From an uncultured Lachnospiraceae bacterium (GTDB taxonomy: Bacteria; Bacillota; Clostridia; Lachnospirales; Lachnospiraceae), in assembly GCA_947588005.1 (NCBI GenBank), contig CANPYE010000003.1:1-59435 (forward strand): a stretch of DNA of 59,435 bases. The letters are read 5' to 3'. The position numbers and the translations under genes are program-made. Below the pieces are notes generated by a model. The model was not told the origin of the DNA. It saw only the letters and a program-made list of their open reading frames with translations, and ran no database searches. This document shows, one piece after another, positions 130 through 55,177 of the stretch (positions within the stretch are counted from its first letter, which is position 1; each line of letters opens with the position of its first letter).

Positions 130-136
130 CCATACT
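130..136 (+). promoter_or_regulatory. CCATACT promoter-like motif of nrdD
   Basis: CCATACT followed by T, 67 bp before the nrdD start codon and downstream of the previous terminator. It is the first of 22 such motifs in the window. A small hairpin (GAGCC 159-163 / GGCTC 168-172) sits between it and the ribosome binding site. Confidence 0.6.
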
Positions 137-196
137 TCTTTTGACAAATCAAGGAATTGAGCCCATAGGCTCAGCCACAAGAAAGGAGAAAACAAA

Positions 197-3007
197 ATGA
201 TTCATGTAGTAAAACGCGATGGAAAGATCGCAGAATTCAATCTGAGTAAGATCTCAGAGGCAATCCGCAAGGCGTTCGAGGCCACAAAGAAGGCCTACAC
301 CACAGAAGTGCTGGAACTCCTGGCCCTGCGCGTGACCGCGGATTTCCAGTCAAAGATTAAGAGCGAAAAGGTATCCGTGGAGGAGATTCAGGACAGCGTA
401 GAGCACGTCCTGGAACAGTCCGGATACACGGATGTGGCGAAGGCGTACATCCTGTACCGCAAGCAGCGCGCCAACGTGCGTGAGATCGGCAAGAATGTGA
501 TCAGCCCCGCGAACCTGATGAACGGGTACCTGGGTTCCTCGGACTGGAGAGTAAAGGAGAACTCAACCGTCATGCATACGCTGGGCGGCCTGATCCTGAA
601 TAACTCCGGCGCGGTAACGGCCAACTACTGGCTGAATGAGATCTACGACGAGGAGATCATGAACGCACATAAGGACTGCCTGATCCATATTCACGACCTG
701 AGCATGCTTGCCGGGTACTGCGCGGGATGGAACTTAAAGCAGTTGATCCAGACCGGCATCGTCGGCGTGGCGAACCGCACGTCCTGCGGTCCCGCGAAGC
801 ATCTGGGTGTCCTGAGCAATCAGATGGTAAACTTCCTGGGGATTATGCAGAACGAATGGGCAGGCGCACAGGCGTTCTCGTCCTTCGACACCTACCTGGC
901 TCCGTACGTCAAGAAGGACAACCTTTCGTATAAGGAAGTCAAGCAGGCAATCCAGAACTTCGTGTTCGGAGTGAACATGCCGAGCCGGTGGGGGACCCAG
1001 GCGCCCTTCTCAAACATTACGCTCGACTGGGTGATCCCGGAAGATATGAAGGAGATGTCTGCGGTTGTCGGCGGAGAGGAAATGCCGTTTACCTATGGCG
1101 AGTGCCAGAAGGAAGCCGATATGGTCAACAAAGCCTTCCTGGAGGTAATGTTGGAAGGCGATTATAACGGAAGAGGATTCCAGTATCCCATGGATCTCGT
1201 GGCTTAACGGGGTGACCCGTTTCGAATAAAGAGTGTGAACCCGTAATTGCGGGGTGTGTACGCGACGTACAGGAAGCGCAGGAAATGGCGCCTAACGCGT
1301 ATGCTAACAGGGGATGGTAAACGGCAGTGATGGGCCGCATCCAAATCTCTGTGCTAAGCCGGCAGGCAAAGACAGGCGTGCCGGAAAGTTCAACGACTAT
1401 CCTGAAATAGGGGTGAAATTCCCCAATAGGAGTAGGGCCAGGATGAAATGCCTGGCGGGTGAAAGTCCCTTAATCCGAAGTGCCTCTCATCTCTGTATAT
1501 ATACACAGATGGTGATATAGTCTAGTCCGACTGCTCCGAGCAGTGTTAAAGTATCGCGAAAGCGACGGTAGATCGTCCCACCTATTCCATCACAAAGGAC
1601 TATGACTGGTCCGCGACTGAGAACAACAAACTGCTGTTTGAAATGGCCGCGAAGTACGGTTCTCCGTATTTCGCCAACTACGTAAACAGCGACATGAATC
1701 CCAGCGACGTGAGAAGCATGTGTTGCCGCTTGCGTCTGGACCTTCGTGACCTCAGACGTCGTAACGGCGGATTCTTCGGCGCCGGCGAATCCACGGGTTC
1801 CGTTGGGGTTGTCACCCTAAACCTGCCGCATATCGCCTACATCTCCAAAACGGAGGATGAGTTCTGGGCAAACCTGGATCATTACATGGACGTGGCGGCT
1901 CGTTCCCTGGATGTGAAGCGTGAGGTTATTACCAAGCTGCTGAACTCCGGGCTGTATCCCTACACAAAGGCATACCTTGGCAGCTTCGACAACCACTTTT
2001 CCACGATCGGACTGGTCGGCGGCAATGAGATGTGTCTCAACGCTGCGTGGCTCGGCAAGGACCTGACCCATTCGGAGTGCCAGGACTTCGTAGAGAAGCT
2101 GCTGAACCACATGCGCAACCGCCTGGCTGACTACCAGGAGAAGTACGCACCGGCGCTGTTCAACCTGGAGGCAACTCCGGCAGAGTCCACCGCGTACCGC
2201 TTTGCCAAGCATGACAAGGAGCGTTATCCTGACATCATCACGGCCAATGAGCATGGTACGCCGTACTACACGAACAGCACCAACCTGCCGGTAGGCACGA
2301 CGGACGACGTGTTCGACGCCCTGGATATCCAGGACCGTTTCCAGCCGCTGTATACATCAGGAACGGTATTCCATACCTTCCTGGGAGAAAAGCTTCCGTC
2401 CTGGGAGTCCGCAGCGCAGCTGGTACGGACCATCTGCTCCAACTACAAACTGCCGTACCTGAGCCTGACGCCGACCTATTCCATCTGTCCTGAGCACGGA
2501 TATATCGCGGGTGAGCATTTCACCTGCCCGAAGTGCGGCGGAGAGACAGAGGTGTACAGCCGTATTACCGGTTACTACCGTCCGATTAAGAACTGGAATG
2601 ACGGCAAAGCGCAGGAATTCAAGGACAGGAAAGAATATGTCCTTGGCAGCGGTAAAGCGGCAGCCAAAGCCATGACAGGACAAGACGCAGCGCAGGCCGG
2701 GTCTGAGGCCGTCTGTGAGTCCTGCAAGGTCGAGACCAACATTCCGGCGGAAACAGCCGGCGCAATATGCGGAGGAACAGATGGGGCAACGGCAGGTAAC
2801 CTGCTGTTCACGACCCCGACCTGCCCGAACTGCAAGACCGCGAAGGCAGCCCTAGATAAAAACGGAGTCACCTATACAGTGATCGATGCGACAGCGGATC
2901 CCGGGCTTGCGAGCAAGTACGGCGTGATGTCCGCTCCGACGCTGATCATGGCGGACGGGACAAAACTCACTGGGGCAGGCGCCATCCTTGGCAGCCTGAA
3001 ACAGTAA
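197..3007 (+). CDS. nrdD: Anaerobic (class III) ribonucleoside-triphosphate reductase, split by a group I intron, C-terminal redoxin domain
   Basis: Coding parts are 197-1191 and 1576-3007, joined in frame to give about 808 residues. The enzyme reduces NTPs to dNTPs by glycyl radical chemistry in anaerobes. Visible: N-terminal ATP cone (MIHVVKRDGK), the body with FGAGESTGSVGVVTLNLP, a C-terminal zinc site (CPEH...CPKC) and the glycyl radical loop RITGYYRP. After the radical domain comes a linker and a glutaredoxin/thioredoxin-like domain with TCPNCK and a SAPT cis-proline motif; this may supply electrons in cis. Across the joint the protein reads QYP-I-PTYSIT, as in uninterrupted NrdDs. The start has a good ribosome binding site (gaaaggag). 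No nrdG activase is in the window, so activation needs a gene elsewhere on the element or in the host. Family identification is very sure; the exact splice sites are inferred. Confidence 0.95.
1192..1575 (+). ncRNA. Group I self-splicing intron in nrdD, no homing endonuclease
   Basis: The nrdD frame stops at 1204-1206 and resumes at 1576. The interval carries group I hallmarks: P1 formed by exon CCAT (1188-1191) with GTGG (1199-1202), placing the conserved U-G pair at the 5' splice site; the R element gttcaacgacta (1388-1399) and the S element gatatagtct (1514-1523), forming P7 by GACTA (1395-1399) with TAGTC (1518-1522); and a terminal G at 1575. Other stems are 1207-1220, 1240-1253, 1410-1424 and 1437-1456. 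Removing it restores QYPIPTYSIT exactly. At 384 nt it has no room for an endonuclease gene. Phage T4 also has a group I intron in nrdD (established), which points to this gene as a preferred target. The subgroup was not determined. Confidence 0.9.
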
Positions 3008-3026
3008 GAAATGATGCAGCGATGCG

Positions 3027-3045
3027 GGGCAGGTTGAAACCTGCC
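3027..3045 (+). other. Hairpin after nrdD
   Basis: Perfect inverted repeat GGGCAGGTT / AACCTGCCT with a 2-nt loop just after the nrdD stop. It has no T run, so it is probably an mRNA 3' stability or processing element rather than a terminator. Confidence 0.4.
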
Positions 3046-3085
3046 TCGCGGTATGCCGCCGAAAACGAATCAGGCAGGGCCATAT

Positions 3086-3129
3086 AAACAGCAGCATGGG
3101 ATGGGATTTCCGTTCCGGCTGCTGTTTTT
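3086..3129 (+). terminator. Terminator of nrdD
   Basis: Stem AAACAGCAGC / GCTGCTGTTT followed directly by T5. It closes the nrdD unit. Confidence 0.8.
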
Positions 3130-3293: not shown

Positions 3294-3300
3294 CCATACT
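3294..3300 (+). promoter_or_regulatory. CCATACT promoter-like motif before the guanylate-kinase-like gene
   Basis: CCATACT followed by T, 178 bp upstream of the start at 3472. The leader holds a strong AAAGGAGG site, a three-codon reading frame (3339-3350) and a CCCGG/CCGGG hairpin. Confidence 0.5.
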
Positions 3301-6717: not shown

Positions 6718-6746
6718 TTGACAAAGTGCTACTATAATATTATAAT
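6718..6746 (+). promoter_or_regulatory. Consensus sigma-70 promoter
   Basis: TTGACA (6718-6723), exactly 17 bp, TATAAT (6741-6746). This is a perfect housekeeping promoter and differs from the CCATACT type used elsewhere, so the downstream pair would be transcribed by the host housekeeping polymerase. Confidence 0.85.
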
Positions 6747-6768: not shown

Positions 6769-7314
6769 ATGATTAACGTAATTATTGATCAATTGACGCC
6801 GTGTTTGAAAGATGCTCACACTGGCGAAGTCGTCCCGACCGAAGTGATTCGAGTAAAAAGGAAATCTTTTTTACGAAAATACAATAAGAGGAATGGATGG
6901 TATACAAAATGGGACGACCTCGCGGATGAAAATGAAATCTATGCTTTGGTTATTGAAGGATCTATGGATATTCAGGGTTTAGTTGCTGTCACTCCAAACG
7001 ACGACATGCGGGCATTATATATAAGCTGGATGTGCGTTAATCCCGAAAGTAATAAACAGATTACTCGTAACATCAAATACCTGGGTATCGGAGGTCATTT
7101 GTTCGCTATAGCTGCCAAAAAATCGATTGATTACGGATATAATGGCTATATGTATGGTTTTGCAGCGAATCAAAAATTGTTAAAACATTACGTTCAAAGT
7201 TTCCACGGAGAAATTATCGCGATCCTACATCCATACCAGTTCGCAATAGATGAACAGGCAGCAAAGGAGCTTATGGAGGTATATGATTATGAATGGACAG
7301 ATGAGACGATATAA
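6769..7314 (+). CDS. Acetyltransferase-like (GNAT-fold) protein
   Basis: 181 residues from ATG 6769, 9 nt after AGGGAG. The strand-turn pattern LVAVTPNDDMRALYISWMCVNPESN followed by LGIGGHLFAIAAKKS resembles the beta4/acetyl-CoA-binding loop and following helix of GNAT proteins (R/Q-x-x-G-x-G/A); here the loop reads KYLGIGGHL. It overlaps a second small gene by 26 nt. GNAT-small protein pairs include toxin-antitoxin systems, but in those the antitoxin is usually upstream; here the partner is downstream. The family call is moderate. Confidence 0.65.
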   Translation: MINVIIDQLTPCLKDAHTGEVVPTEVIRVKRKSFLRKYNKRNGWYTKWDDLADENEIYALVIEGSMDIQGLVAVTPNDDMRALYISWMCVNPESNKQITRNIKYLGIGGHLFAIAAKKSIDYGYNGYMYGFAANQKLLKHYVQSFHGEIIAILHPYQFAIDEQAAKELMEVYDYEWTDETI

Positions 7315-7678: not shown

Positions 7679-7685
7679 TCATACT
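7679..7685 (+). promoter_or_regulatory. TCATACT promoter-like motif
   Basis: One mismatch from CCATACT, followed by T, 75 bp before the small gene at 7754 and 36 bp after a TATCCGCA site. Confidence 0.4.
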
Positions 7686-7753: not shown

Positions 7754-7948
7754 ATGGCAAGCATAGAAGAAAAGGTTGAGGATTATTACAAAGCACGTTT
7801 GCGCTCACTCGGCATCAAGGTTTTTAACAAGACAGATAATGTCAATAAGAGTATCGCAAACGCTTTGTTTGAGTCTGCGTCAAAATCAGGCGGCTCAGGT
7901 ATGAACTACCCTGACATTAAGCTCTTGCTCGACGACAACCGTCAATAA
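7754..7948 (+). pseudogene. Truncated N-terminal part of a nuclease-like protein
   Basis: 64 residues, start MASIEEKVEDYYKARL with a GAAAGGG site. The end SKSGGSGMNYPDIKLLLDD resembles the beginning of a PD-(D/E)XK-type nuclease core, where PDI would hold the first acidic residue, but the downstream E-x-K half is missing: the frame stops exactly where the hairpin at 7949 begins. It may be a gene cut off by insertion of the IscB island, or a short autonomous protein. The nuclease resemblance is from memory of similar sequences. Confidence 0.45.
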
Positions 7949-7977
7949 CCCCACCTGATTCAAAGAATCAGATGGGG
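7949..7977. repeat. Left hairpin of the IscB island
   Basis: Stem CCCCA / TGGGG, a C-A mismatch, then CTGATTC / GAATCAG with an AAA loop. It has the same architecture, with compensatory base changes, as the hairpin at 9872-9903 on the other side of iscB. It directly abuts the stop codon of the remnant at 7754. Confidence 0.6.
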
Positions 7978-8026
7978 CTTGCAAGAAAAAGCGAACAGGA
8001 AATATCTTGTTTCGCTTCTTGTAAGC
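7977..8026. other. Second left hairpin
   Basis: Imperfect inverted repeat: GCTT/AAGC, CAAGAA/TTCTTG and AGCGAACA/TGTTTCGCT arms around AGGAAATATCT. It lies between the first hairpin and the omega RNA region. Confidence 0.45.
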
Positions 8027-8039
8027 CCGGTTGATTAGC

Positions 8040-8333
8040 CTAAGTGACCTGCGCAAGTCTACGGAAACTACGCGGCGGGAACTACGTTATCCCGGAATAT
8101 ACAGGCACCGTCGGATGCTCCTCAAGTCTGGCGCTCTGCGGGCGCCTGTTAAACATCCCTGAGGGCAGGGGAAGTGCAGCCGCCACAAAACCCGGGACAA
8201 CATTGGCGAAGAGGACCACGCGGCCGGCCGTGCCGGGAACGGCGCGGAAGGCGCAGATGCCTGCCAGTACCCACGCATCCCCGTGATGCAGTGCGGCAAT
8301 GGCAGGGAGGGCGTAAGCCCGGAAAGGAACAAC
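8040..8333 (+). ncRNA. Omega (HEARO) RNA of the IscB system
   Basis: About 290 nt of GC-rich, non-coding, highly structured DNA directly upstream of iscB, the position of the HEARO/omega RNA in IscB loci (established). Paired elements can be seen: CCTGCGC...GCGGCGGG near 8050-8080, GGATG/CATCC and GGCGC/GCGCC near 8113-8160, GCCGGCCGTGCCGGGAACGGC near 8222-8242, and GGGC/GCCC just before the start codon. The guide is expected at the 5' end, near 8020-8045. Boundaries are estimates and the structure was not computed. Confidence 0.7.
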
Positions 8334-10325: not shown

Positions 10326-10332
10326 ACATACT
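10326..10332 (+). promoter_or_regulatory. ACATACT promoter-like motif
   Basis: GACATACT variant 49 bp before the start at 10375. Three other units use the same GACATACT form (15729, 18678, 53751; the 53751 copy reads AGACATACT). Confidence 0.45.
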
Positions 10333-15728: not shown

Positions 15729-15735
15729 ACATACT
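15729..15735 (+). promoter_or_regulatory. ACATACT promoter-like motif of the signal peptidase
   Basis: AAGACATACTATT, 63 bp before the start at 15792 and after the terminator at 15686. Confidence 0.45.
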
Positions 15736-16420: not shown

Positions 16421-18589
16421 ATGGCATCCAATTACATCGACAAGGACCGGGAGCACCAGAAACATATTCTATTCTTTATTTGCACAGCGGTTGCACTTAT
16501 GTTTATCGTTTATCTCTGTGCAAAAACTGCATATTTGGCGGAATCTGCACAAAGTGAGAATGTAACGATTGAGCACATTATGGCCGCGCTGTTCGTTATG
16601 ACATCGGAACCATTGCCAATCAGTTTTAATCCGGATTATTTTACTCCGGTTTTTGTACCGGTCTCCCTGATCGTGGCCTTCGCCGTATTCGGCGTATATG
16701 ACACGCAGGTCAGGGATAAGCATAAGACCGCATTTTCTCAGTATGGTACTGCTAAATTCATGACGACGAAAATGCTCTCCGAGTTTAATAGGGTCTTCAA
16801 CGAGCCTTTCGGCTCGACTGACAATACTTCCCAGGCCAACATCATCCTTTCTGAGAATACCAGGGTATCGATGAACTGCAAAAAACTGGGCAATAATAAC
16901 GTACTCGTCATCGGCGGTCCCGGTACCGGTAAATCCTGGGCCGTGGTACGTCCAAATCTGCTGCAGGAATATGGGTCGTACGTGATCACTGACCCGTCTG
17001 GCGAGCTGTTAGCTACGACTGGTAAGTTTTTTGAGGAGCGCAACTACCGGCTCAGGGTCTTTAACCTGGTGGATATGTCACACTCTAATACATACAATCC
17101 ATTCCGGTATATTGAGAAGGAAGAGGACGTCATGACCCTGATTAACTGCCTGATCAACTGTACGTCGGAGGGGCAGAAGTCCTCGGATCCGTTCTGGGAG
17201 AAATCCGAGACGGCGCTTCTTGAGGCGATCATATTTTACCTGATCCGTTACCGGCCACTGAAGAACCAAAACTTTTCCATGGTATCACGGATGCTCGCAG
17301 CAGCGAAAGCGGATAAGGAGGGCAACTCCCAACTCGATCAGACATTTAACGCTGTACGAAGGATCGACCCGGATGATATTTGCGTAAGACAGTATGATAT
17401 CTTCAAACAGGCGTCGGATAAAACCGCCCAGTCTATCCTGATCTCGGCAGCGGTACGGCTGTCGCCATTTAATATAGACGCAGTACAGAACCTGACGAAC
17501 ACGGACCAGATGGAACTGACGACGATCGGTGATACTCCGACTGTTACGTTCATCATTGTGCCGCAGGGCGATACCACATATTCATTCCTGGTCAACATGA
17601 TGTACAGCCAGATGTTTTCCACTCTTTATGAACATGCGGCCAAAACAGACCAGATCCCATTAAAATATCAGGTACGATTCATGCTCGATGAGTTCGCGAA
17701 CATCGGGGTGATACCGAACTTTCAGCAGAAGCTGACCACCATGCGTAAATATGGGCTGTCCTGTATGATCTTTATCCAGGCGATCGGTCAGATCAAAAAC
17801 TTATACAAAGACGACTGGGAGACGATCAAGGGCGCCTGTTCCATGATTCTTTATCTTGGCGGCAATGAAACGTCTACCCACGAGGAAATCGTCAAAATGG
17901 CCGGCAAGGAGACCATGAGGGTGAAGGATTCATCAACTTCCCGGAATGGGAAGGGCAGCGGCTCCGACAGTAAATCGTATAAGTACGCAGCACGTGACCT
18001 TATCACCATCGACGAGGTTCGTCGTCTTAAAAATGAACATGTGCTGTGCTTTGTATCAGGCCAGCAGCCGATTTATGAAAAACGTTATCCGACACAAAAA
18101 CACCCGAATGCCAAGTATCTTGGTAACCTGTCAAACGGGGAGCGCGTTTACCGGTTCACTTACTGTAATGCGCAGGCCAGCAGTATTGAACGGCTGGAAA
18201 GGAACCGTAAGCAGCTTAATGAAAAGCTGAAAGAACAGCAAAAGAGCAGGAATACCGATGCCAGACCGGTCACCACTCCGACCTCTCTGGATCCAAGGGC
18301 GATGCTCGAAATGGTGAATGACATCACAAAAAAGGATGATGTGCTGAAACAGATACCGAAAACCGGAATCAGCGAGAAGGATATGAAACAGTCCGGTACA
18401 ACTGCCGGCACCGTTGTAAAAGGACAGCGCTCAGAAACGTCCTATGTGATGCCAGGCCAGGTGACTGCACTTAAGCCATTGGGAACCGCCTCCGCGGCGA
18501 GCAGGGGAGTATCTGTGGCACCAAGGAATGATACAGCGGGGAACCAGGCGCTGGCTGATATAATGAACGCCCTTGAATCGTCGCAGTAG
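16421..18589 (+). CDS. Type IV secretion coupling protein (VirD4/TraG family)
   Basis: 722 residues. Two N-terminal membrane segments (about 16-40 and 75-92), Walker A GGPGTGKSWAVVRPN near residue 165, ITDPSGELL, Walker B RFMLDEFANIGVIPNF near residue 420, then a long disordered C-terminal tail. It powers and selects DNA substrates for conjugation, linking a relaxase-DNA complex to the mating channel. This is the clearest evidence that the element is conjugative. Relaxase, VirB4 and channel genes are not in the window. Ribosome binding site gaaaggag. Confidence 0.93.
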   Translation: MASNYIDKDREHQKHILFFICTAVALMFIVYLCAKTAYLAESAQSENVTIEHIMAALFVMTSEPLPISFNPDYFTPVFVPVSLIVAFAVFGVYDTQVRDKHKTAFSQYGTAKFMTTKMLSEFNRVFNEPFGSTDNTSQANIILSENTRVSMNCKKLGNNNVLVIGGPGTGKSWAVVRPNLLQEYGSYVITDPSGELLATTGKFFEERNYRLRVFNLVDMSHSNTYNPFRYIEKEEDVMTLINCLINCTSEGQKSSDPFWEKSETALLEAIIFYLIRYRPLKNQNFSMVSRMLAAAKADKEGNSQLDQTFNAVRRIDPDDICVRQYDIFKQASDKTAQSILISAAVRLSPFNIDAVQNLTNTDQMELTTIGDTPTVTFIIVPQGDTTYSFLVNMMYSQMFSTLYEHAAKTDQIPLKYQVRFMLDEFANIGVIPNFQQKLTTMRKYGLSCMIFIQAIGQIKNLYKDDWETIKGACSMILYLGGNETSTHEEIVKMAGKETMRVKDSSTSRNGKGSGSDSKSYKYAARDLITIDEVRRLKNEHVLCFVSGQQPIYEKRYPTQKHPNAKYLGNLSNGERVYRFTYCNAQASSIERLERNRKQLNEKLKEQQKSRNTDARPVTTPTSLDPRAMLEMVNDITKKDDVLKQIPKTGISEKDMKQSGTTAGTVVKGQRSETSYVMPGQVTALKPLGTASAASRGVSVAPRNDTAGNQALADIMNALESSQ

Positions 18590-18677: not shown

Positions 18678-18684
18678 ACATACT
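18678..18684 (+). promoter_or_regulatory. ACATACT promoter-like motif
   Basis: ATGACATACTACA only 31 bp before the start at 18709. If it is a -10 element, the leader is under 20 nt and consists mainly of the AGGAGG site, which pins down the role of the motif as a -10. Confidence 0.5.
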
Positions 18685-20143: not shown

Positions 20144-20150
20144 CCATACT
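20144..20150 (+). promoter_or_regulatory. CCATACT promoter-like motif of ssb
   Basis: TTTCCATACTCC, 79 bp before the ssb start. No TATCCGCA copy nearby. Confidence 0.6.
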
Positions 20151-20675: not shown

Positions 20676-20699
20676 GGCAGGATGCAACGTCTGACGAGT

Positions 20700-20734: not shown

Positions 20735-20740
20735 TCATAC

Positions 20741-20804: not shown

Positions 20805-21734
20805 TCAGTGTATCGTGTTAAGTCTCCTGGTATTTAAGTAGTCATGCTGAAGCTTCTGTATCGCGGCATTCGCCGTACGACGGACTGTTTCATCTGAGCA
20901 CCCAAGTTCCTTAGCGCATTGCCTCAAGGACATAGGCTCCCCTCCGACAAATCCGAAACGAAGCATGATCACACGTTGCTCGAACGGCTCCAGTTTCTTT
21001 ACAGCTGACATGATATCCGACAGAGACACACGTTTGACGGCCTCTTCTTCAACATCCTGTTCGGACGGGATCGCTTCGCCAAATACTAAATCGGATGTGT
21101 CGGTATCGGTCCGATCATCAGATACAGGTGCATCGAGAGAGAATGTATCCCTATGACGAAGATTCATGATAAACTGTACCTTACTTTCGGGCAAGCCCAT
21201 CAATTTAGCCAAAGTTTCCATAGATGGCTTTGATCCGGTATCTCTTTCCGATGCTTTCAGGATTTTATCCAGCTTGATCGCGAGCTTATGCACATAGTCA
21301 GGCAACCGGATTAAATCCTTTTTATAAATGAGTTCGGAACAGATTGTTTCCTCAATCCAGTATACTGCGTACGTTGAGAGTCTGGTTCCAGCCTTTATGT
21401 CGAAACGGTCGATGGCTTTGATAAGACCAATCACGCCATACGATACCACGTCATCCAAGCTGCAGATTTCACGAAATACGTACTTGCTGGCGACTTTAAC
21501 AACCAGTCTTAAATTACTCAGTACCAGTTTTTCCCTGGCTGCGGGCCATTCCGGCGTCCCTTTCATGTTGAACAGTTCCTGTATTTCTTCATGTGACAGT
21601 ATTGGGTTCCGGTTGATGATCGACCGGAACGAAAGACCTGGGTCATCGTCCGGCGATTTCGGCTTTCTTCCGGTTGCCGTCCGCTTTATCACTGGATCCA
21701 CTTCTGCTGCTGTTGCTTGATTATAAGCTGCCAT
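20805..21734 (-). CDS. Sigma-70 family RNA polymerase sigma factor
   Basis: 309 residues from ATG at 21734 (AAAGGAGG upstream on the minus strand); a longer frame to 21806 has no ribosome binding site and would cover the promoter. Region 2 (NLRLVVKVASKYVFREICSL, then GLIKAIDRFDIKAGTRLSTY and AVYWIEETI), region 3 (MLAKLMGLPE-like helix) and region 4 with a helix-turn-helix (MSLRQCAKELGCSDETVRR) are all present. Group 2/3-like, without region 1.1. It is preceded by the CCATACT motif found before most units, so it may recognise its own promoter. The strongest candidate for the element-specific initiation factor. Confidence 0.93.
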   Translation of the reverse strand: MAAYNQATAAEVDPVIKRTATGRKPKSPDDDPGLSFRSIINRNPILSHEEIQELFNMKGTPEWPAAREKLVLSNLRLVVKVASKYVFREICSLDDVVSYGVIGLIKAIDRFDIKAGTRLSTYAVYWIEETICSELIYKKDLIRLPDYVHKLAIKLDKILKASERDTGSKPSMETLAKLMGLPESKVQFIMNLRHRDTFSLDAPVSDDRTDTDTSDLVFGEAIPSEQDVEEEAVKRVSLSDIMSAVKKLEPFEQRVIMLRFGFVGGEPMSLRQCAKELGCSDETVRRTANAAIQKLQHDYLNTRRLNTIH

Positions 21735-21782: not shown

Positions 21783-21789
21783 AGTATGG
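21783..21789 (-). promoter_or_regulatory. CCATACT promoter-like motif of the sigma gene (minus strand)
   Basis: TTCCCATACTC on the minus strand, 55 bp before the sigma start. Confidence 0.6.
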
Positions 21790-22021: not shown

Positions 22022-22729
22022 TTAGTCTTCTATGGAATATCCTCTGGAGTATTCCTGACAATACTTCTTGGCATTTTCTACATTGCCTTGGATCGTTTTG
22101 TTGCGACGTCCATGGTATTCTTTCTTCCATTCTTTAAATTGTTCGTATGCATAATCGCCTTCCATCCGGATTTGGGAGAGGACAGGACCTTCTGCCCATA
22201 CTTTATCGCGGATACCGTCATACTCAAACTGTGCATGCCCAAGTGTATCACGGTATTTCGTCTGTGGTGCCGGCAGATTTAATGGAAAGATTTTCGCATC
22301 GGGCAATGGCTGGTCATAGAGTTCCAAAAAACGGTCAACAATGTGACTGTCAAAATCAACAACGAAGTCATCTGGGCAGCTGGATACAAGTGCCAGGATG
22401 TCCCTGACACGCTGCCGACGGCTGTCCAGGATTGCGGCGCTGACTTTCTCCATATCCTCTGTCCGACACACGACGTCTCCAGGACCTGCTATCCCATCCA
22501 TTCGCATTCCGCCGTAGTGCTCGATCGCATTTGTGGCCGTGCGGATAGGAATATTGGACAATGCGCTGGTGTAACCGGGGATCAATTCACCCGCCGAAAC
22601 GGTCTCCGGTCGTTTATCGCCATCAAATAAAAGGTTCCCAAATATGAGCCGCAGGTTTTCAACAGCCTGCTTATCCGCAAACGTAGCTCCTTCCTGATTC
22701 GGTAAATAGCTGGTTGATATATCTGACAT
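22022..22729 (-). CDS. Unknown protein
   Basis: 235 residues starting MSDISTSYLPNQEGATF with GAGGAGG upstream. Soluble, acidic N-terminal half, no recognisable motif. It carries a TATCCGCA copy in its coding sequence (22672). Unlike most units no CCATACT lies before it; a TATAAT-like hexamer (minus strand, 22816-22811) may serve instead, without a clear -35. Confidence 0.75.
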   Translation of the reverse strand: MSDISTSYLPNQEGATFADKQAVENLRLIFGNLLFDGDKRPETVSAGELIPGYTSALSNIPIRTATNAIEHYGGMRMDGIAGPGDVVCRTEDMEKVSAAILDSRRQRVRDILALVSSCPDDFVVDFDSHIVDRFLELYDQPLPDAKIFPLNLPAPQTKYRDTLGHAQFEYDGIRDKVWAEGPVLSQIRMEGDYAYEQFKEWKKEYHGRRNKTIQGNVENAKKYCQEYSRGYSIED

Positions 22730-22930: not shown

Positions 22931-22937
22931 CCATACT
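22931..22937 (+). promoter_or_regulatory. CCATACT promoter-like motif
   Basis: TATCCATACTTT, 51 bp before the start at 22982. Confidence 0.6.
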
Positions 22938-23741: not shown

Positions 23742-23748
23742 CCATACT
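23742..23748 (+). promoter_or_regulatory. CCATACT promoter-like motif of the MoxR/VWA unit
   Basis: TATCCATACTTTA, 64 bp before the start at 23806. Confidence 0.6.
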
Positions 23749-28863: not shown

Positions 28864-28870
28864 CCATACT
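28864..28870 (+). promoter_or_regulatory. CCATACT promoter-like motif of dnaE
   Basis: TCTCCATACTTCC, 44 bp before the dnaE start. Confidence 0.6.
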
Positions 28871-33084: not shown

Positions 33085-33091
33085 CCATACT
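33085..33091 (+). promoter_or_regulatory. CCATACT promoter-like motif
   Basis: AATCCATACTTG, 58 bp before the start at 33143. A perfect GAGGT/ACCTC hairpin (33116-33127) touches the ribosome binding site. Confidence 0.6.
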
Positions 33092-35422: not shown

Positions 35423-35455
35423 TATAATCATTCATTGTCCTAACAAGGAGAAACG

Positions 35456-35481
35456 CCCCGCGCAGAAGCGCGGGGTTTTTT
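35456..35481 (+). terminator. Terminator
   Basis: CCCCGCGC / GCGCGGGG with AGAA loop, T6. Confidence 0.9.
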
Positions 35482-35548
35482 CTGCTCTCAAATGAAGAAA
35501 TAATGACGAAATATTATATTTCTGGTACAAAAAAAGACAATACAGTAT

Positions 35549-35555
35549 CCATACT
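35549..35555 (+). promoter_or_regulatory. CCATACT promoter-like motif
   Basis: TATCCATACTTC, 49 bp before the start at 35598. Confidence 0.6.
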
Positions 35556-35597
35556 TCAAGTGATCGACAATAAGGAACATAGAAGGAGGAAAGGGAA

Positions 35598-35810
35598 GTG
35601 AACAAAAAACTCATGTTCGTCGAAGCAGCTCCGCTGATCTCGGTTCTTTATGCCAGGTCAGCACTCACAGCAGACGAAAAGAAGGATATCCTGATTTCGC
35701 TTAGAGGCGATCCGGAGAACAGACAGGCCAGGGCGATCCTTGCCAGGAAACTTCTGGAATGCCCGGATGAGACGGATATCCGGATGCTGTATGAAAAGAT
35801 CCGTGAATGA
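35598..35810 (+). CDS. Unknown small protein, GTG start
   Basis: 70 residues, starting at GTG 35598 behind AGGAGG. Helical, charged (DEKKDILISLRGDPENRQAR). It opens the unit that continues through the SMC-like ATPase. Not recognised. Confidence 0.65.
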   Translation: MNKKLMFVEAAPLISVLYARSALTADEKKDILISLRGDPENRQARAILARKLLECPDETDIRMLYEKIRE

Positions 35811-35835
35811 TCATCAAACAAGAAAGGAGAAAACA

Positions 35836-37422: not shown

Positions 37423-37439
37423 TAAGAAGTACAGTATAC

Positions 37440-37461
37440 GGGTCCGCCAGAAGGCGGACCC
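37440..37461. promoter_or_regulatory. Intercistronic hairpin at ribosome binding site
   Basis: Perfect 9-bp stem GGGTCCGCC / GGCGGACCC with AGAA loop, ending 2-3 nt before AAAGGAG and 16 nt before the ATG at 37477. No T run. It may set translation or protect the downstream part of the mRNA. Confidence 0.6.
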
Positions 37462-37476
37462 AGAAAGGAGAAACAG

Positions 37477-40218: not shown

Positions 40219-40225
40219 CCATACT
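40219..40225 (+). promoter_or_regulatory. CCATACT promoter-like motif
   Basis: ATTCCATACTTA, 159 bp before the start at 40378; the leader in between is GC-rich and non-coding. Confidence 0.55.
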
Positions 40226-41323: not shown

Positions 41324-41331
41324 TATCCGCA
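41324..41331 (+). promoter_or_regulatory. TATCCGCA site
   Basis: TTATCCGCA directly after the terminator, 32 bp before the CCATACT motif. Confidence 0.55.
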
Positions 41332-41355
41332 AAAGGATGACATCAAAAAAAATTT

Positions 41356-41362
41356 CCATACT
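41356..41362 (+). promoter_or_regulatory. CCATACT promoter-like motif of the parM unit
   Basis: TTTCCATACTTA, 67 bp before the TTG start at 41423. Confidence 0.6.
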
Positions 41363-44323: not shown

Positions 44324-44330
44324 CCATACT
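44324..44330 (+). promoter_or_regulatory. CCATACT promoter-like motif of the adhesin gene
   Basis: GCTCCATACTTT, 70 bp before the start at 44394. A leader hairpin AGGACCC/GGGTCCT (44343-44369) precedes the ribosome binding site. Confidence 0.6.
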
Positions 44331-47003: not shown

Positions 47004-47055
47004 CTGCGAGGTATGCAAATTTGTAAAAATAGCCTTTTTACATTGAAATGTATCT

Positions 47056-47062
47056 CCATACT
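47056..47062 (+). promoter_or_regulatory. CCATACT promoter-like motif with long leader
   Basis: TCTCCATACTAT, 384 bp upstream of the next convincing start (47440). The leader is non-coding. Confidence 0.5.
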
Positions 47063-47063
47063 A

Positions 47064-47439
47064 TCTGTGATTAGATATACAAGGAATGGTAGTGAATCTC
47101 AAAACGTTACTTTGCAAAATGGCAACAAGCATTTTCTCAAGGCATCAGTAGCCTCAACATGCGAGGCGAGAATCTTTGAATATCCGGTACATTGCAAGGG
47201 GATAGATCATTCAAGCTTAACATATTGGCGTTTATGTGAAGTCTCTTACGTGTAGAAGGAATCGCATGCTTTTGCCGGAACCTCGGTTCCCCTAAACCCG
47301 AAGGATGTCGGGATCCAAAATAGATTTAACACTATAAATATAAAATAATCATAGACAAAACTGAATATTGAAGAAACACCACAAAAAAATTACATAAGGA
47401 GAGCCTCGTAGCGTTGACTACGGGGCACACAAGGAGAAT
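47064..47439 (+). promoter_or_regulatory. Long structured 5' leader of the wall protein gene
   Basis: About 370 nt without a credible gene. Hairpins: GGAACC/GGTTCC (47277-47290), CCCGA/TCGGG (47297-47312) and GCCTCGTA/TACGGGGC (47403-47426), the last ending just before AAGGAG. An 84-codon frame (47001-47255) starts upstream of the motif and has no ribosome binding site. A regulatory RNA leader is possible. Confidence 0.4.
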
Positions 47440-48668: not shown

Positions 48669-48675
48669 CTATACT
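48669..48675 (+). promoter_or_regulatory. CTATACT promoter-like motif
   Basis: One mismatch from CCATACT; 38 bp before the start at 48707. Confidence 0.45.
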
Positions 48676-48706: not shown

Positions 48707-49591
48707 ATGAATAAGAATCTCAATCAGTATTTATTAAGGTTTGTAGCTGTAGTAACCTGTGCCAGCACCATGTTAACCACCGTAACGCCTTACACGGCAT
48801 ATGCCAATCCTGTCAATGCCAGCGACAATGTTTATTATACGGAAGTCTCTGGTATCGTGACTGACTTGACTGCGAACTTCAAAGATGAGAAGGAGCGGGA
48901 TTGTTGCTACAGCGCCATGATGACCGGAGTTTTCGGAGAGCATTTTAACAACTGGGATTATAACCGTGCGAACAATGACCTGATTTATGTAATTGACGCC
49001 AATGAGCCGAACCTACTGCTGAGTGAATTCGCTGCGATCAACGGCAGGGTAAAGTACGTTGACTTCAAAACAGGGAAACATTACTATTGTTCGCTTACTA
49101 AAATCCCGCTTAACGAAGACGGCATTAATGAGCAGAATTATGCATGCCTGAAATCCGTTTATCAGGCCGCTGTCACGTTGAAGGCACAGACCGAAGGTAT
49201 GAACGTCACGGACAAAGCGAAAGTAATTCACGATTACATGGTCGCACGGTACACTCCGGGTTCTGAGCAAGATCTGAACGCACACAGTGCTTTCTATATG
49301 GAAGCAACTGGACAGGGTATTTGCTCTGCATACATGGTCATGTTTCTGCTGCTCGGCCGCTATTGTGGACTGGATGTAGGATCAGTGGAATACTGGACTT
49401 CGAGCGGTATCCTGCATACCTTCGATACGGTTATGCTTGAAAACGGTGAAACGCGATGCATTGATGTGATGTGGGATGACATCGAAAACGGATACGCGTA
49501 TTTTATGGAGACCGAAAGCGCGAACCTGATCTCTCATCCGCGTATGGAGGGCATGGCAGCCGGCCGTTACGCTATAAAACTCTCAAAATAA
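48707..49591 (+). CDS. Secreted transglutaminase-like protein
   Basis: 294 residues from ATG 48707 (AAAAGGAG upstream). Signal peptide ending near TAYA (residues 28-31). Transglutaminase-like triad: Cys in GQGICSAYMVMF, His in SGILHTFDTVML and Asp in RCIDVMWDD; KAKVIHDYMVARYTP precedes, as in family members. Likely a secreted protease or cross-linking enzyme acting at the cell wall or on the neighbouring wall proteins. Confidence 0.85.
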   Translation: MNKNLNQYLLRFVAVVTCASTMLTTVTPYTAYANPVNASDNVYYTEVSGIVTDLTANFKDEKERDCCYSAMMTGVFGEHFNNWDYNRANNDLIYVIDANEPNLLLSEFAAINGRVKYVDFKTGKHYYCSLTKIPLNEDGINEQNYACLKSVYQAAVTLKAQTEGMNVTDKAKVIHDYMVARYTPGSEQDLNAHSAFYMEATGQGICSAYMVMFLLLGRYCGLDVGSVEYWTSSGILHTFDTVMLENGETRCIDVMWDDIENGYAYFMETESANLISHPRMEGMAAGRYAIKLSK

Positions 49592-49598
49592 CAATCCT

Positions 49599-49606
49599 TG
49601 CGGATA
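49599..49606 (-). promoter_or_regulatory. TATCCGCA site (reversed)
   Basis: TGCGGATA on the plus strand, 73 bp before the CCATACT motif at 49672. Confidence 0.5.
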
Positions 49607-49611
49607 CACAA

Positions 49612-49647
49612 AAAAGCCTTTCCCTGATATAAGGGAAGGGCTTTTTC
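49612..49647 (+). terminator. Terminator
   Basis: AAAGCCTTTCCCT / AGGGAAGGGCTTT stem with T run. Confidence 0.85.
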
Positions 49648-49671
49648 GCTAAAAATCATGTTTCCATGTAT

Positions 49672-49678
49672 CCATACT
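49672..49678 (+). promoter_or_regulatory. CCATACT promoter-like motif
   Basis: TATCCATACTGT, 104 bp before the start at 49776. The leader has a CTCGG/CCGAG hairpin (49704-49724) with a CATTCAATG core, resembling CATTGAATG in the hairpin at 59209. Confidence 0.6.
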
Positions 49679-49775
49679 GTATTAGGATAGCTAAGCGGGA
49701 ATCCTCGGTCATTCAATGTCCGAGTAGTTCACGCACACAGAATTTCATTGCAGTTCTGGCAGAAAGGAGATTACG

Positions 49776-51950
49776 ATGAGTGAAGAAATGGAAATGATGG
49801 CAGGACAGGAAACGAATACTTCATCAATCCCTGCGAGTCAAATGCACGCGCAAGAGGATATACAGGGAAATGCGGATAATAAAATTGAGCAGACGCAGGC
49901 AGGACCGATGTCAGATGGCCGCGCGGATCAACCCGGAGAAGAACAGACTAAACAGCCATCTTCTGCGGATAGCAGATCCTCCGGCATTACGGCCGAGCAG
50001 GATAGGGAAAAACTCAATCGCGCTCAGGCCGAGTATGATGCCAGGAATAAAGCCGTTCGCGACAGGCAAACAGCAGTCCGCAAGAATGATGCAGAACATA
50101 GAGGAAAGCCCGAAGAACGGCCTCGTGGTTTGTTCGCCAGCTTGCGGGATTTCGTCATCCGTGCGTACCATCGTGCAAAACATTTGATAGAGCAAGCGAT
50201 CGGCCGGGGACGCATCCTCGCGCATCCGGTTATAAACAGGGTTGATTTTCAAAGATCTGCCATGGGCCAGCCGTCAAAAGGGGACCCATCTGTAGATAGA
50301 GACACTCAAAACATAACGAACAATCAAGAAAAGGGCAGAAACTGGGGGAACTTGCTGTACCATGGATTCGCCAGACGGATCCTCGGCAAGGACGCCTATA
50401 TGTACGCAGTCACACAGGCAGAGAAGCAAGAAAACGCTGGACGTAATGGAATAACCCATGAATCGGTGCAAACAAGCTTCACACAGCCAAATGCGGCCGG
50501 CAAAGAGAACGGAGCTACGCAAGCAACCGAACCAGCAAAAAACAATAACCAGACGAAGTCAATCAATCAGGAAGAAATGAAAGGAAAGTTCAATGCCCTA
50601 CATAAGATCGTTACAAGTGATCTTGAAGACAGGTTTTCGAACGCAAAGGAAGCCAAAGAGGCGTACCTGAATCATTACGCACAACTGCTTCAAACGAAAT
50701 TGACTGAAATAAATAATGGGGAACCGGTACAGGTATCGGCATCCAGAACGGAAGGCAAACTGGAGATCCGGATCAACGATCAGGCCGATAAATTCGGCGG
50801 ATACCCGTCCTTTATGGGATGTTCCAAAATCCGGATCGAAATAGACGGACACCTGAATGTTACATCTGCTGAAGCGTTCGTGCCTACAAAGCAAAACGCT
50901 GACGGGAAAGTAGTCGGAAAGCGAATCGATGTCTCTGACACGCTCGGGATGTACGTGGTTTCTGACTTGGCGAGAAATTTCCGGGAAGATTATAACCGGG
51001 GAGCGGAATCCTATAACCTCACGAGCAGGAATGAGTTTGAAAAAACAATACGGGACGCTGTCGCTAAGGGCGACGGACGTTTCTCCATCGATAACATCAC
51101 TTATACGATATCGGTAAAAGACAAACAGATCCAGATCAGCCGGACTGACGGGGACCGAACGTTCAGCATCGCCATGGACGCCAACTTGGAGAAACCGTCG
51201 GCGGCAAAACAGGAGCACGAAAACAAAGTATCTGCTTTACAGAATGCGGAGCAGCGGCTGCATGCAGCTGAAGCACGCTATAATGAATTAATGTCCGAAC
51301 TGGGGCAGAAGCAGGAAGCATGTAAACAGGCTCTCGCAAAAGCGATGGATGCGGCACAGACAAAGAAAGATTTGGATGATGCACTGAAATATACACGCAC
51401 AAAGTTATCCGGGGAATATCCGGGATCTGAAAAGATGGCAGAACTGAAGCAACAGGAGAAAGATCTCCTGAAGTCATCCAGGGATGCGTTCAAGAATAAT
51501 CAAAAAGCCGGAAACGCTAAAAACATGGCGTTAATGGAACAGGAAGAACTAAATAAAACTATCAAAGACGTACAGGTACAGATAGATGCATTAAAAAGCG
51601 AAACGGCGTCATTAAGGAGCGCCTGTGAGGGAACACAAAAAGAGGTCGAAGCCGCTTCGCAACAGCATAATGCGGACATAAATGAAGTATACCAAGCCCA
51701 TGTAAAGAGCGTGACGGAAGACCGTCAGTTAATAATCCATGCCTTTGAGGATGTCCTGCCGGGCTATAAAAACGAGCTTGGCTGCAGACTTGGATTGGAA
51801 GACTTGAATATGACCATGGAAGGAACCGGCAGAACCTACATGGAGGAAGCCCTGAATGAGCAAACAGCTGACGCACACGAAGAACTGTCTATCAGGCAGG
51901 AGGATAGCGAACGGCAGGCAGTACAGGATCTAAGCGAAGAACGCGAGTAA
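49776..51950 (+). CDS. Large unknown protein with disordered head and coiled-coil tail
   Basis: 724 residues. Residues 1-250 are disordered and charged; residues about 265-475 look folded (beta strands SRTEGKLEIRIND, CSKIRIEIDGHLNV, DNITYTISVKDKQIQISR); residues about 480-650 are coiled coil; the end is acidic. No catalytic motif. Two TGCGGATA copies (49871, 49964) lie in the disordered head. AAAGGAG ribosome binding site. A structural role is possible. Confidence 0.75.
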   Translation: MSEEMEMMAGQETNTSSIPASQMHAQEDIQGNADNKIEQTQAGPMSDGRADQPGEEQTKQPSSADSRSSGITAEQDREKLNRAQAEYDARNKAVRDRQTAVRKNDAEHRGKPEERPRGLFASLRDFVIRAYHRAKHLIEQAIGRGRILAHPVINRVDFQRSAMGQPSKGDPSVDRDTQNITNNQEKGRNWGNLLYHGFARRILGKDAYMYAVTQAEKQENAGRNGITHESVQTSFTQPNAAGKENGATQATEPAKNNNQTKSINQEEMKGKFNALHKIVTSDLEDRFSNAKEAKEAYLNHYAQLLQTKLTEINNGEPVQVSASRTEGKLEIRINDQADKFGGYPSFMGCSKIRIEIDGHLNVTSAEAFVPTKQNADGKVVGKRIDVSDTLGMYVVSDLARNFREDYNRGAESYNLTSRNEFEKTIRDAVAKGDGRFSIDNITYTISVKDKQIQISRTDGDRTFSIAMDANLEKPSAAKQEHENKVSALQNAEQRLHAAEARYNELMSELGQKQEACKQALAKAMDAAQTKKDLDDALKYTRTKLSGEYPGSEKMAELKQQEKDLLKSSRDAFKNNQKAGNAKNMALMEQEELNKTIKDVQVQIDALKSETASLRSACEGTQKEVEAASQQHNADINEVYQAHVKSVTEDRQLIIHAFEDVLPGYKNELGCRLGLEDLNMTMEGTGRTYMEEALNEQTADAHEELSIRQEDSERQAVQDLSEERE

Positions 51951-52831: not shown

Positions 52832-53572
52832 TCAGGAGAAACTTTCGCGATTAAGCCCCTTTCGTTCCATTACTCTTTTTAGGGCGGCCTTGCCCTTTAT
52901 AATTGTTTTAGAAACGGTCGGCTGAGTTACGTGAAATTTAGCGGCAATAGCTCGTTGTGATTCGGGTTGCCCCTTGCGGCATGTACTGAGAAAATACTTC
53001 CAAATTTCTTTCCTTATTCCGTCATGCATGGAAAGTAAGGATCGTGTCAGGCATTCATCCAGTACAGCGTCCAATTCGTTACTTGATTCAGCTTCCAGAT
53101 ACCCTCGTTCCTCAATTCCCACTGTATCCCCAATTGTACCGATATAGTCTTCTGACCGCTCATCGTATATCGGCTGATCAAGGCGCAGGGTAAACTTTGA
53201 GTTCAGGATCATGTAATATTCCTCTGCTGTGATACCCAGTTTCGTTAAAGCATCTGTTTCTTCGTACCCGAGAGTAAGCAATCGGAGAAATTGTACATAC
53301 AGGTCATATAGATGCCTGGGAAGCCGAATACCGGAATGGATCTGTTCGCGGCGGTAGCGTTTGATATATCCGGATATGTACGAAACAGCATATGTTGAAA
53401 ATTGAGTCCCATTATTTTCACTATACCGTTTGGCAGCGAGAACAAGCGCAGCCATTCCTTCCTGCGCAAGGTCCTGGTATTCCGGATCGCTTTGAGGCAC
53501 GCGGAGAAGCGTCTGCAGGACGTAATGAACAAGATCCATGTTTTGTTCCGCGAGCTCCTTGTAATCACTCAT
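52832..53572 (-). CDS. Second sigma-70 family sigma factor
   Basis: 246 residues. Region 2 (YQDLAQEGMAALVLAAKRYS, QFSTYAVSYISGYIKRYRREQ) and region 4 with a helix-turn-helix (SQRAIAAKFHVTQPTVSKTI). Shorter than the factor at 20805 and with a long acidic linker between regions. It too is preceded by a minus-strand CCATACT motif and a TATCCGCA site 33 bp further upstream, so it belongs to the same regulatory network. Sporulation- or phage-type sigma factors are similar in size. Confidence 0.9.
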   Translation of the reverse strand: MSDYKELAEQNMDLVHYVLQTLLRVPQSDPEYQDLAQEGMAALVLAAKRYSENNGTQFSTYAVSYISGYIKRYRREQIHSGIRLPRHLYDLYVQFLRLLTLGYEETDALTKLGITAEEYYMILNSKFTLRLDQPIYDERSEDYIGTIGDTVGIEERGYLEAESSNELDAVLDECLTRSLLSMHDGIRKEIWKYFLSTCRKGQPESQRAIAAKFHVTQPTVSKTIIKGKAALKRVMERKGLNRESFS

Positions 53573-53658: not shown

Positions 53659-53665
53659 AGTATGG
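53659..53665 (-). promoter_or_regulatory. CCATACT promoter-like motif of the second sigma gene (minus strand)
   Basis: CAGCCATACTTT on the minus strand, 93 bp before the sigma start. Confidence 0.6.
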
Positions 53666-53750: not shown

Positions 53751-53757
53751 ACATACT
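53751..53757 (+). promoter_or_regulatory. ACATACT promoter-like motif
   Basis: CAGACATACTATA, 102 bp before the start at 53853; divergent from the sigma promoter. Confidence 0.45.
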
Positions 53758-54260: not shown

Positions 54261-54264
54261 TGGC

Positions 54265-55131
54265 ATGAGGAAAAGTACAGTAATAATCGCAACACTTGCA
54301 TACGTGTTTTCGTTCTCCATTATGGCTTTTGGAGCGGCGCCATCATTCGGCCAGGAAACAGTTGTGGACCAGGATGCATCGGCAACATTAGAAGACCATG
54401 ATGGCGACAACACAGAGGACGTTGATAGCATGGGCCAGTATGAGGTCCAAAGCAGGGAAAACGGCATAGGCGGCGAGAGCGAGGAAACAGCCTTGACAGG
54501 CGCAGACGAAACTGTTCCTGAGGACGATGGAACCACATCAACGGGTTTTGCCGATGAAAACATCGAAGCTGGAAATGAAGATGATATGCCGGACAGTACG
54601 AATGACAGTGTGGTACTTCCAGCCTATGTGACGGAGCAGGAAACGGCGACAGTGACTGCAGGCGAAGAACAGGAAGTGGTTGCCGGAGTGATACCGAATG
54701 CGCCCTCCTACAGCGCTCCGGAAGACGAACAGCACGTGCGTGTAAGCTTCCATTTCGAAGAAGCGTCAACTTCCGCGTACTTTTCGGATCTGACTTATCC
54801 GCTGACACTGAGATTAAAGGAAGTGGATACCGGACGCAAGCTGACTCTGACTATTAAATCGGATGGACAGATTCTGGAAGTGGAAAAAGGCGATTACTCC
54901 GTCCAGTCTTTAAAGGACAGTGGCAAGGTACCCCTGACTGTTGCAGGGGATATACTGCACCTGTACCAAAACACGGAGTATCCTGTGCGTTTTTCTGCGA
55001 ACAACGGCTTAAAGATGTTTATGGATTTCCTTGCGGATAACGTTTTATTGGTGGTTTTCTTTGTCTTTGCAGCCTTGTTTTACAAAGCGGTTATCATTCC
55101 ACGGTTCGCAAGCGATATCAGAAGACACTAA
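54265..55131 (+). CDS. Exported membrane-anchored protein
   Basis: 288 residues. Signal peptide (MRKSTVIIATLAYVFSFSIM), long acidic low-complexity region to about residue 140, a beta-rich domain (VRVSFHFEE...LTLTIKSDGQILEVEKG), then a C-terminal membrane helix (NVLLVVFFVFAALFYKAVII). Architecture like the protein at 18709 but shorter. Translation is probably coupled to the upstream gene since no clear ribosome binding site is present. Confidence 0.7.
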   Translation: MRKSTVIIATLAYVFSFSIMAFGAAPSFGQETVVDQDASATLEDHDGDNTEDVDSMGQYEVQSRENGIGGESEETALTGADETVPEDDGTTSTGFADENIEAGNEDDMPDSTNDSVVLPAYVTEQETATVTAGEEQEVVAGVIPNAPSYSAPEDEQHVRVSFHFEEASTSAYFSDLTYPLTLRLKEVDTGRKLTLTIKSDGQILEVEKGDYSVQSLKDSGKVPLTVAGDILHLYQNTEYPVRFSANNGLKMFMDFLADNVLLVVFFVFAALFYKAVIIPRFASDIRRH

Positions 55132-55138
55132 AAATTGC

Positions 55139-55146
55139 TATCCGCA
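55139..55146 (+). promoter_or_regulatory. TATCCGCA site
   Basis: Exact intergenic copy preceded by C, 32 bp before the CCATACT motif of the topoisomerase gene. Confidence 0.55.
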
Positions 55147-55170
55147 AAAACCTCGCGGCGCAAACATAAG

Positions 55171-55177
55171 CCATACT
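55171..55177 (+). promoter_or_regulatory. CCATACT promoter-like motif of the topoisomerase unit
   Basis: AAGCCATACTGT, 52 bp before the start at 55223. Confidence 0.6.

Follow-up and report, generated by a model that had tools for sequence, protein, structure and literature searches.

A CCATACT motif on a conjugation-type mobile element of an uncultured Lachnospiraceae bacterium as the probable −10 region of promoters read by an element-encoded sigma factor

The window analysed here, a stretch of 59,435 nucleotides from an uncultured Lachnospiraceae bacterium (GenBank CANPYE010000003.1), is contig C3 of a 3.05-Mb, 232-contig genome (G000) and carries genes of a conjugation-type mobile element. 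A first-pass annotation reported the heptamer CCATACT, or a one-base variant of it, in front of 22 transcription units of this DNA and proposed that CATACT acts as the −10 hexamer of an element-specific promoter class, which raises the question of whether such a class exists and what might read it. We located each of the 22 sites at its coordinate and on the strand of the gene that it precedes (Table 1), 16 as exact CCATACT and six as one-base variants (7679, 10326, 15729, 18678, 48669 and 53751). The reported distances to the start codon hold for most sites (31-104 nt) and for the long leaders at 3294 (178 nt) and 47056 (384 nt), whereas the leader at 40219 measures 153 nt rather than 159. 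We propose that the motif, CCATACTT, would be a −10 region, with CATACT at −12 to −7, C at −13 and T at −6, and that an element-encoded sigma factor (sigma 1) together with the RNA polymerase core would recognise it in the absence of a −35 hexamer and begin transcription 7 nt beyond CATACT, at a purine; at a subset of sites (class B), an activator would bind a second, upstream box. We assign this explanation as a whole a probability of about 0.82.

The motif stands out from the background in several ways. The window contains 20 exact copies of CCATACT where 5.2 are expected (standard deviation 2.17; maximum among 100 shuffles, 10), and the four exact copies beyond the listed sites (16740 and 42020 and 45876 on the minus strand, 22196 on the plus strand) fall within called genes. 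When 7-mers present in at least 4 of the 30 upstream intergenic regions (50-400 nt) were ranked against an order-2 Markov model, with no motif chosen beforehand and three doubtful open reading frames (ORFs) taken off the gene list by hand, CCATACT came first (14 of 30 regions versus 0.36 expected; P ~6e-18, uncorrected), followed by shifted forms of itself, the ribosome-binding site and TATCCGCA. Over the whole genome CCATACTT is not frequent, with 69 copies versus 94 for the backwards-read control; 13 of these lie on the window contig and seven on contigs C20 and C55, whose promoters share the context of the window sites and which are therefore probably other parts of the element.

To see where the copies fall, we classed them by our own gene calls. 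On six element contigs or contig parts (339.6 kb), 75 copies lie just upstream of a co-directional gene, 13 are elsewhere between genes and 47 are coding; the reversed 7-mer has no upstream copy there. The corresponding counts for 12 host stretches (240 kb) are 2, 2 and 15, with one upstream copy of the reversed 7-mer. The host stretches belong to a set of 20 from the window's own genome, of which three (C20 and C55) count as element and five (C105, C11, C27 and C2; 77 kb) were left out of the main count because they had been picked for holding CCATACTT; in these five, no copy is upstream, 2 are elsewhere between genes and 13 are coding. On contig C41 of a related genome, also outside the 75-site count, 3 copies are upstream, 8 are coding and 1 is neither, and the reversed control has no upstream copy. 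In three relatives (G165, G398 and G456), contigs that encode a related actin-like protein (35-39%) have a single upstream copy in 246 kb, and sigma 1 found no match on the contigs examined. The observed motif pattern is confirmed as real, and the upstream enrichment and low host frequency that the first-pass annotation proposed to look for are both present (75 upstream element copies versus 2 in 240 kb of host DNA).

We then asked whether the sites are conserved in related elements. A search of 99 related genomes (own included) with sigma 1 gave one close homologue, in G015 (46%, E 1.7e-74; next 8e-39), and a scan of genome contigs with the AAA protein gave two loci, in G015 and in G459. The latter genome probably holds two copies of the element, one on contig C4 and another to which C30 and probably also C41 belong. 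Contig C59 of G015 is syntenic with window positions 16421-49591 (37-83% protein identity) and bears 14 CCATACT copies, 11 of which match window sites by gene or region. Eighteen of the 22 window sites could be compared through an orthologous gene or a similar region, and 17 of these keep NCATACT while the flanks differ; the chance level, counted on host genes, is 13 of 222 with an NCATACT in the 350 nt before the gene. Three of the comparisons (33085 in C4, 49672 and 47056) were made by hand, the automatic orthologue search having missed the first two. Beyond these copies, a search of the genomes of the genus (26) and of the family (397), the window's own among them, returned G015 (4e-173) followed by 1.6e-46 and 3e-50 and no further close member, the weaker sigma matches there being presumably RpoD-like. 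Viral contigs yielded no confirmed relatives of sigma 1, the AAA protein or the actin-like protein, a plasmid search with the 14096 protein gave no match, and against plasmids and phages sigma 1 had only matches below 60% identity, the best at ~28-36%. A motif scan of viral contigs with TTTCCATACTTCCNRTGAA picked out one stretch (L114), which contains CCATACT once and matches none of the window proteins; we took it as chance.

The anatomy of the sites was examined in the 75 upstream copies, picked by location only on the element contigs. A purine occupies the predicted +1 in 73 of 75 upstream sites versus 29 of 47 coding copies, a pyrimidine-purine step spans −1/+1 in 61 of 75 versus 21 of 47, and T is found at −6 in 81% of the upstream sites. 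The +1 assignment rests on this set because sequence context had entered the scoring by which two other sets, of 101 sites and of 81 class A sites, were selected. Among the 22 listed window sites, 20 have a purine at +1 and 15 the pyrimidine-purine step. Upstream of the core, only positions −43 to −41 (A/T), −37, −20 and −17 to −14 exceed the null in the 75 sites, and between −36 and −21 no position rises above the 99.9% null, so that no −35 hexamer was detected. An A-rich stretch follows the core. Because three sites (23742, 35549 and 49672) are palindromic (GTATCCATAC) and some genes do have sigma-A-type promoters, namely the gene at 22022 and the one behind 6718-6746, CCATACTT might instead be the operator of an element regulator placed near promoters read by the host sigma factor. 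We consider this unlikely: the core keeps a fixed distance from the purine in the place of a −10 region, the palindrome is not conserved at orthologous promoters, and sigma-A-like sites are no commoner than chance (18 in 20001-40000 versus 17.9 expected).

Which sigma factor would read such a −10 region? Sigma 1 exceeds the Pfam cut-offs for sigma regions 2, 4 and 3 (PF04542, 44.5 bits, cut-off 24; PF04545, 40.6, cut-off 24.1; PF04539, 27.3, cut-off 25.3) and that of the sigma-70 family model TIGR02937 (101.4 bits, cut-off 42.9). It scores highest on RpoD-type models, below their cut-offs (TIGR02393, 147.8 bits versus 354), and does not classify as a primary sigma factor. It is the only region-2 sigma common to the four element copies (window, G015 C59, G459 C4 and G459 C30), and it is 41-44% identical to its element homologues and 29-31% identical to three host RpoD-like proteins. 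The differences include the DNA-contacting helices: region 2.4 is WWIRQAITRAI or WWIRQSVTRAL in the host proteins and YWIEETICSEL (window), YWILQEIRDNL (G015) or QWI(Q/L)QEIRDGL (G459) in the elements, and the region 4.2 helix is TRERIRQ in the host proteins versus SDETVRR, SIEGCRQ, SAESCRR and SPESCRR in the elements (two of the five host rows, L054 and L022, were read in the wrong frame and ignored). These are residues that we take to read the −12 and −35 bases, and the changes would fit C in place of T at −12 as well as the missing −35 hexamer. From the co-occurrence of motif and gene, and from the motif in the promoter of the sigma gene itself, we infer that sigma 1 reads CCATACTT; since its own promoter has the same core, positive feedback is expected.

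The −10 assignment could also be right and the reader a different one, either the second sigma-70-family protein of the window or an alternative sigma factor of the host. The gene of the second protein does lie behind a CCATACT site, and the host genomes have 15 (G000), 27 (G015) and 24 (G459) region-2 sigma matches to choose from. On the other side, a search with the second protein matched none of the remaining motif-rich contigs (C59, C4, C30, C20 and C55, some of them partial), and host genes are nearly free of the motif upstream, which makes either reader improbable beside sigma 1. The proposal of CATACT as the −10 hexamer of an element-specific class is supported by purine spacing, orthologue conservation, near-absence from the host and an element-encoded sigma factor; it had named no sigma factor as reader and had missed a second signal, the class B box.

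The earlier statement that no shared −35 could be seen is correct as to a hexamer, but the class B subset carries a second conserved box, CTATCCGCAGAAA, at −46 to −34 behind an A tract. In a search that allowed spacings of 18-58 and at most three mismatches, so that some of the 39 rows are chance, 25 rows fell at spacing 32-35 and 19 of them at 33. The full box is 20 bp long (AAAAACGCTATCCGCAGAAA, about −53 to −34) and stands at a fixed distance from the core. When boxes were taken alone (at most one mismatch, at least three A in the preceding 8 bases; n = 46), 14 had exact CATACT at the expected place, none had it with one mismatch, two with two mismatches and 30 with three or four; the core downstream of the box is all-or-none. 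An 18-bp form of the box (at most three mismatches) has 51 copies in 367 kb of element DNA and none in 240 kb of host DNA or 246 kb of the sigma-less relatives, and its scrambled form has none; a 12-bp form (at most one mismatch) separates the three less sharply, with 61 copies in the element, 8 in the host and 4 in the sigma-less DNA. We presume a likeness to the DnaA box, and an activator bound to the class B box would probably touch polymerase from the −40 region. Many copies are solitary and some are in tandem. On G459 C4, the box AAAAACGYTATCCGCAGAAA is repeated about 50 nt apart (175767, 175816 and 175866) 5' of a gene of the 40372 type, where there is no promoter core, and could be a candidate site for a partition or replication protein.

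Two further alternatives fare worse. A role at the RNA level, with the motif serving as a conserved leader or as a processing element, would suit the A-rich stretch after the core, and is made very improbable by the conserved purine 3' of the core, by the class B box locked 5' of it and by the site at 18678, only 31 nt before the ATG. Least probable of all is a single-subunit RNA polymerase of the element, a thought suggested by the private promoters that phage-type polymerases are said to use, since no polymerase is among the Pfam-scanned window proteins and PF00940 has no match in G000, G015 or G459, a weak negative given that the control matched in 0 of 14 genomes.

Several observations weigh against reading CCATACTT as the −10 region of sigma 1 promoters. 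One comparable site, 48669, fails: the listed CTATACT is present at its coordinate, its orthologues in G015 and G459 C4 have no core there, and we rejected it as a probable chance occurrence. Another 4 of the 22 sites (3294, 7679, 22931 and 53665 on the minus strand) have no comparison. The predicted +1 is T at 41356 and 44324, and 7 of the 22 window sites have no pyrimidine-purine step. Only three genomes carry sigma 1, all of one lineage, and the element contig of G015 is partial. The sigma-less relatives are lower in G+C (30-41%), and the gene calls are our own heuristic, by which some sites that are likely to be true fell into the coding class (of the 12 copies on C41, only 3 came out as upstream). 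Finally, the second sigma-70 protein also lies behind a CCATACT site.

Table 1. Motif sites, upstream boxes and associated genes in the window. The predicted +1 is 7 nt after the CATACT hexamer; gene starts are in brackets; C4, C30 and C41 are contigs of G459.
Feature	Position	Strand	Predicted +1	Downstream gene or remark	Related elements
CCATACT core	130..136	+	143	NrdD part 1 (197)	Kept in C30 (NrdD 27% identical)
CCATACT core	3294..3300	+	3307	Guanylate-kinase-like gene (3472)	Orthologue not found
TCATACT variant core	7679..7685	+	7692	Small ORF (7745); context fits	Orthologue not found
ACATACT variant core	10326..10332	+	10339	Transglutaminase-like gene (10375)	C/ACATACT kept in C4, C30
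ACATACT variant core	15729..15735	+	15742	Signal peptidase I (15792)	ACATACT kept in C4, C30
VirD4/TraG-type conjugation coupling ATPase	16421..18589	+		NF045973, 457 bits (cut-off 250); identifies the element type	
ACATACT variant core	18678..18684	+	18691	Gene without Pfam match (18709)	Kept just 5' of the ribosome-binding site in C4, C30; G015 copy farther upstream
CCATACT core	20144..20150	+	20157	ORF (20190)	Kept in G015, C4, C30
Sigma-70 factor 1	20805..21734	−		Regions 2, 3 and 4; proposed reader of the motif	
CCATACT core	21783..21789	−	21776	Sigma gene's own promoter	CCATACTC in 4/4 sigma gene copies
Conserved neighbour of sigma 1	22022..22729	−		TATAAT (sigma-A-type) upstream	TATAAT in the 3 elements where found; no homologue on C30
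CCATACT core	22931..22937	+	22944		Downstream protein without tblastn match in other element contigs
CCATACT core	23742..23748	+	23755	AAA ATPase (23806)	Kept in G015, C4
CCATACT core	28864..28870	+	28877	DNA polymerase III alpha (28908)	Kept in G015, C4, C30
CCATACT core	33085..33091	+	33098	Gene (33143)	Kept in G015, C4
CCATACT core	35549..35555	+	35562	Gene (35598)	Kept in G015, C4
CCATACT core	40219..40225	+	40232	Gene (40372)	Kept in G015, C4, C41
Class B box TATCCGCAAAAG	41324..41335	+		Core begins 20 nt after box	
CCATACT core (class B)	41356..41362	+	41369 (T)	Actin-like partition-type gene (41423)	Kept in G015, C4
CCATACT core	44324..44330	+	44337 (T, then G)	Thioester/SpaA-fold surface protein (44394)	Kept in G015, C4, C41
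CCATACT core	47056..47062	+	47069	Long leader to 47440	Compared through similar region 47013-47255 (G015, C4) instead of gene 47440
CTATACT, probably no real site	48669..48675	+			Not kept in G015 or C4
CCATACT core	49672..49678	+	49685	Gene (49776)	Matched by hand in C4, C41
Second sigma-70-family protein	52832..53572	−		Behind the 53665 site	
CCATACT core	53659..53665	−	53652	Second sigma-70 gene	Orthologue not found
Class B box TATCCGCATGAA	53687..53698	−		Core 21 nt after box	
ACATACT variant core	53751..53757	+	53764	Gene (53820)	TCATACT in C4, CCATACT in C41
Class B box TATCCGCAAAAA	55139..55150	+		Core begins 20 nt after box	
CCATACT core (class B)	55171..55177	+	55184	Topoisomerase (55223)	ACATACT in C4

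As to the element itself, Pfam and PHROGs searches of the window identified a VirD4/TraG coupling ATPase, DNA polymerase III alpha, an actin-like partition protein and a topoisomerase, along with an anaerobic ribonucleotide reductase, RecR, a signal peptidase, a thioester/SpaA surface protein and the two sigma-70 proteins. A relaxase and a VirB4-type ATPase are not among the scanned window proteins, and the window is probably part of the element. The conserved neighbour of sigma 1 at 22022-22729, with its sigma-A-type TATAAT, may be an early gene read by the host polymerase. The unit with a perfect TTGACA-17-TATAAT, said to lack the motif, indeed has an exact copy of that promoter at 6718-6746 and no CCATACT before its gene; this is the sole exact TTGACA-(15-19)-TATAAT, and the gene (6769-7314) has no match in five other element contigs and is possibly recent cargo. 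At the right end of the contig, 59310-59435 is a tandem repeat of ~30 bp (CATCTTGGCTCAGCTACGCTGAGACTGG...), and a similar short stretch lies near the end of C55; the window contig and C55 may therefore adjoin.

In G459, element DNA adjoins both halves of the forespore sigma factor gene sigG, one half beside a serine recombinase gene. The gene is split near codon 95, with the 3' part on C4 (region 49163-51335; L065 9163-11335) and the 5' part on C41 (region 10712-10993; L124), and is uninterrupted in G000 and G015; a class B CCATACT promoter (51447, minus strand) precedes this sigG-adjacent unit. A search for this recombinase on the window, C20, C55, C59 and C30 gave no match, and no junction was seen for the window copy. 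A helix-turn-helix protein gene and two tyrosine recombinase genes at the far end of the element stretch on C4 (206622-209808; L061), near host-like genes, are candidates for a second integration module or an assembly join. Within the window, a HEARO RNA (7941-9770 with its gene; Rfam RF02033, 115 bits, E 4.6e-23) lies directly 5' of an RRXRR/HNH protein gene (8334-9770), a pair that we take to resemble an IscB-type nuclease with its guide-RNA scaffold, and a 75% identical RRXRR/HNH protein is encoded elsewhere in the C4 element. An insert of ~435 nt (1208-1642) divides the gene for the anaerobic ribonucleotide reductase into two ORFs; it looks intron-like by eye, and Rfam models searched over 1150-1700 gave two matches, both far below gathering scores.

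A mobile-element sigma factor with its own regulon has a precedent in SigN (ZpdN) of the Bacillus subtilis plasmid pBS32, which is described as plasmid-encoded and self-activating, with a mostly plasmid-restricted regulon (PMC6751061), and to which more than 20 promoters are ascribed (PMC10601692). SigN is called weakly homologous to ECF sigma factors, and its consensus has −35 and −10 regions, with ATATAAT in two of its promoters. Like SigN, sigma 1 is a sigma factor of a mobile element whose own promoter carries what would be its own motif. Sigma 1 has region 3, and it differs from SigN in scoring highest on RpoD-type models and in the CATACT −10 with no −35 that it would use. The motif sites are confined to the element (75 upstream in 340 kb versus 2 in 240 kb of host DNA), and a regulon predicted from them would be too. 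The phage sigma factors SPO1 gp28 and T4 gp55 reportedly redirect the host core polymerase to private promoters, and T4 late promoters are said to lack a −35; the present system differs in its conjugation-type element and in its −10. The plasmids NC_014824 of Ruminococcus albus 7 and NC_014389 of Butyrivibrio proteoclasticus encode a ParM/StbA-family protein 34-35% identical to the actin-like protein. Among the titles listed in our literature searches, none appeared to concern a CCATACT promoter system, and no paper was retrieved that pairs integrative and conjugative elements with an encoded sigma factor. We conclude that the principle of a plasmid sigma factor with its own regulon is known from SigN, from which the present system departs in its type of sigma factor, in a CATACT −10 that has no −35 with it and in the box fixed upstream.

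Promoters of this class would be found only in one family of large, conjugation-type elements, where they would drive most of the genes. More tentatively, such an element may have become autonomous in its transcription, one self-activating sigma factor and its private, −35-less promoter running the genes for replication, partition, transfer, surface and integration functions together, so that the element could stay silent and then be turned on as a unit; the dispersed, DnaA-box-like 20-bp box would couple a subset of these promoters to a further input, for instance replication or segregation. If the explanation is right, a class of large gut mobile elements would be recognisable, and its start sites predictable, from a 7-bp signal; a conjugation-type element would join pBS32 in having a sigma factor with a private regulon, and would supply an orthogonal sigma/promoter pair that has a well-defined consensus and lacks a −35; and whether such elements switch on as a unit would become testable.

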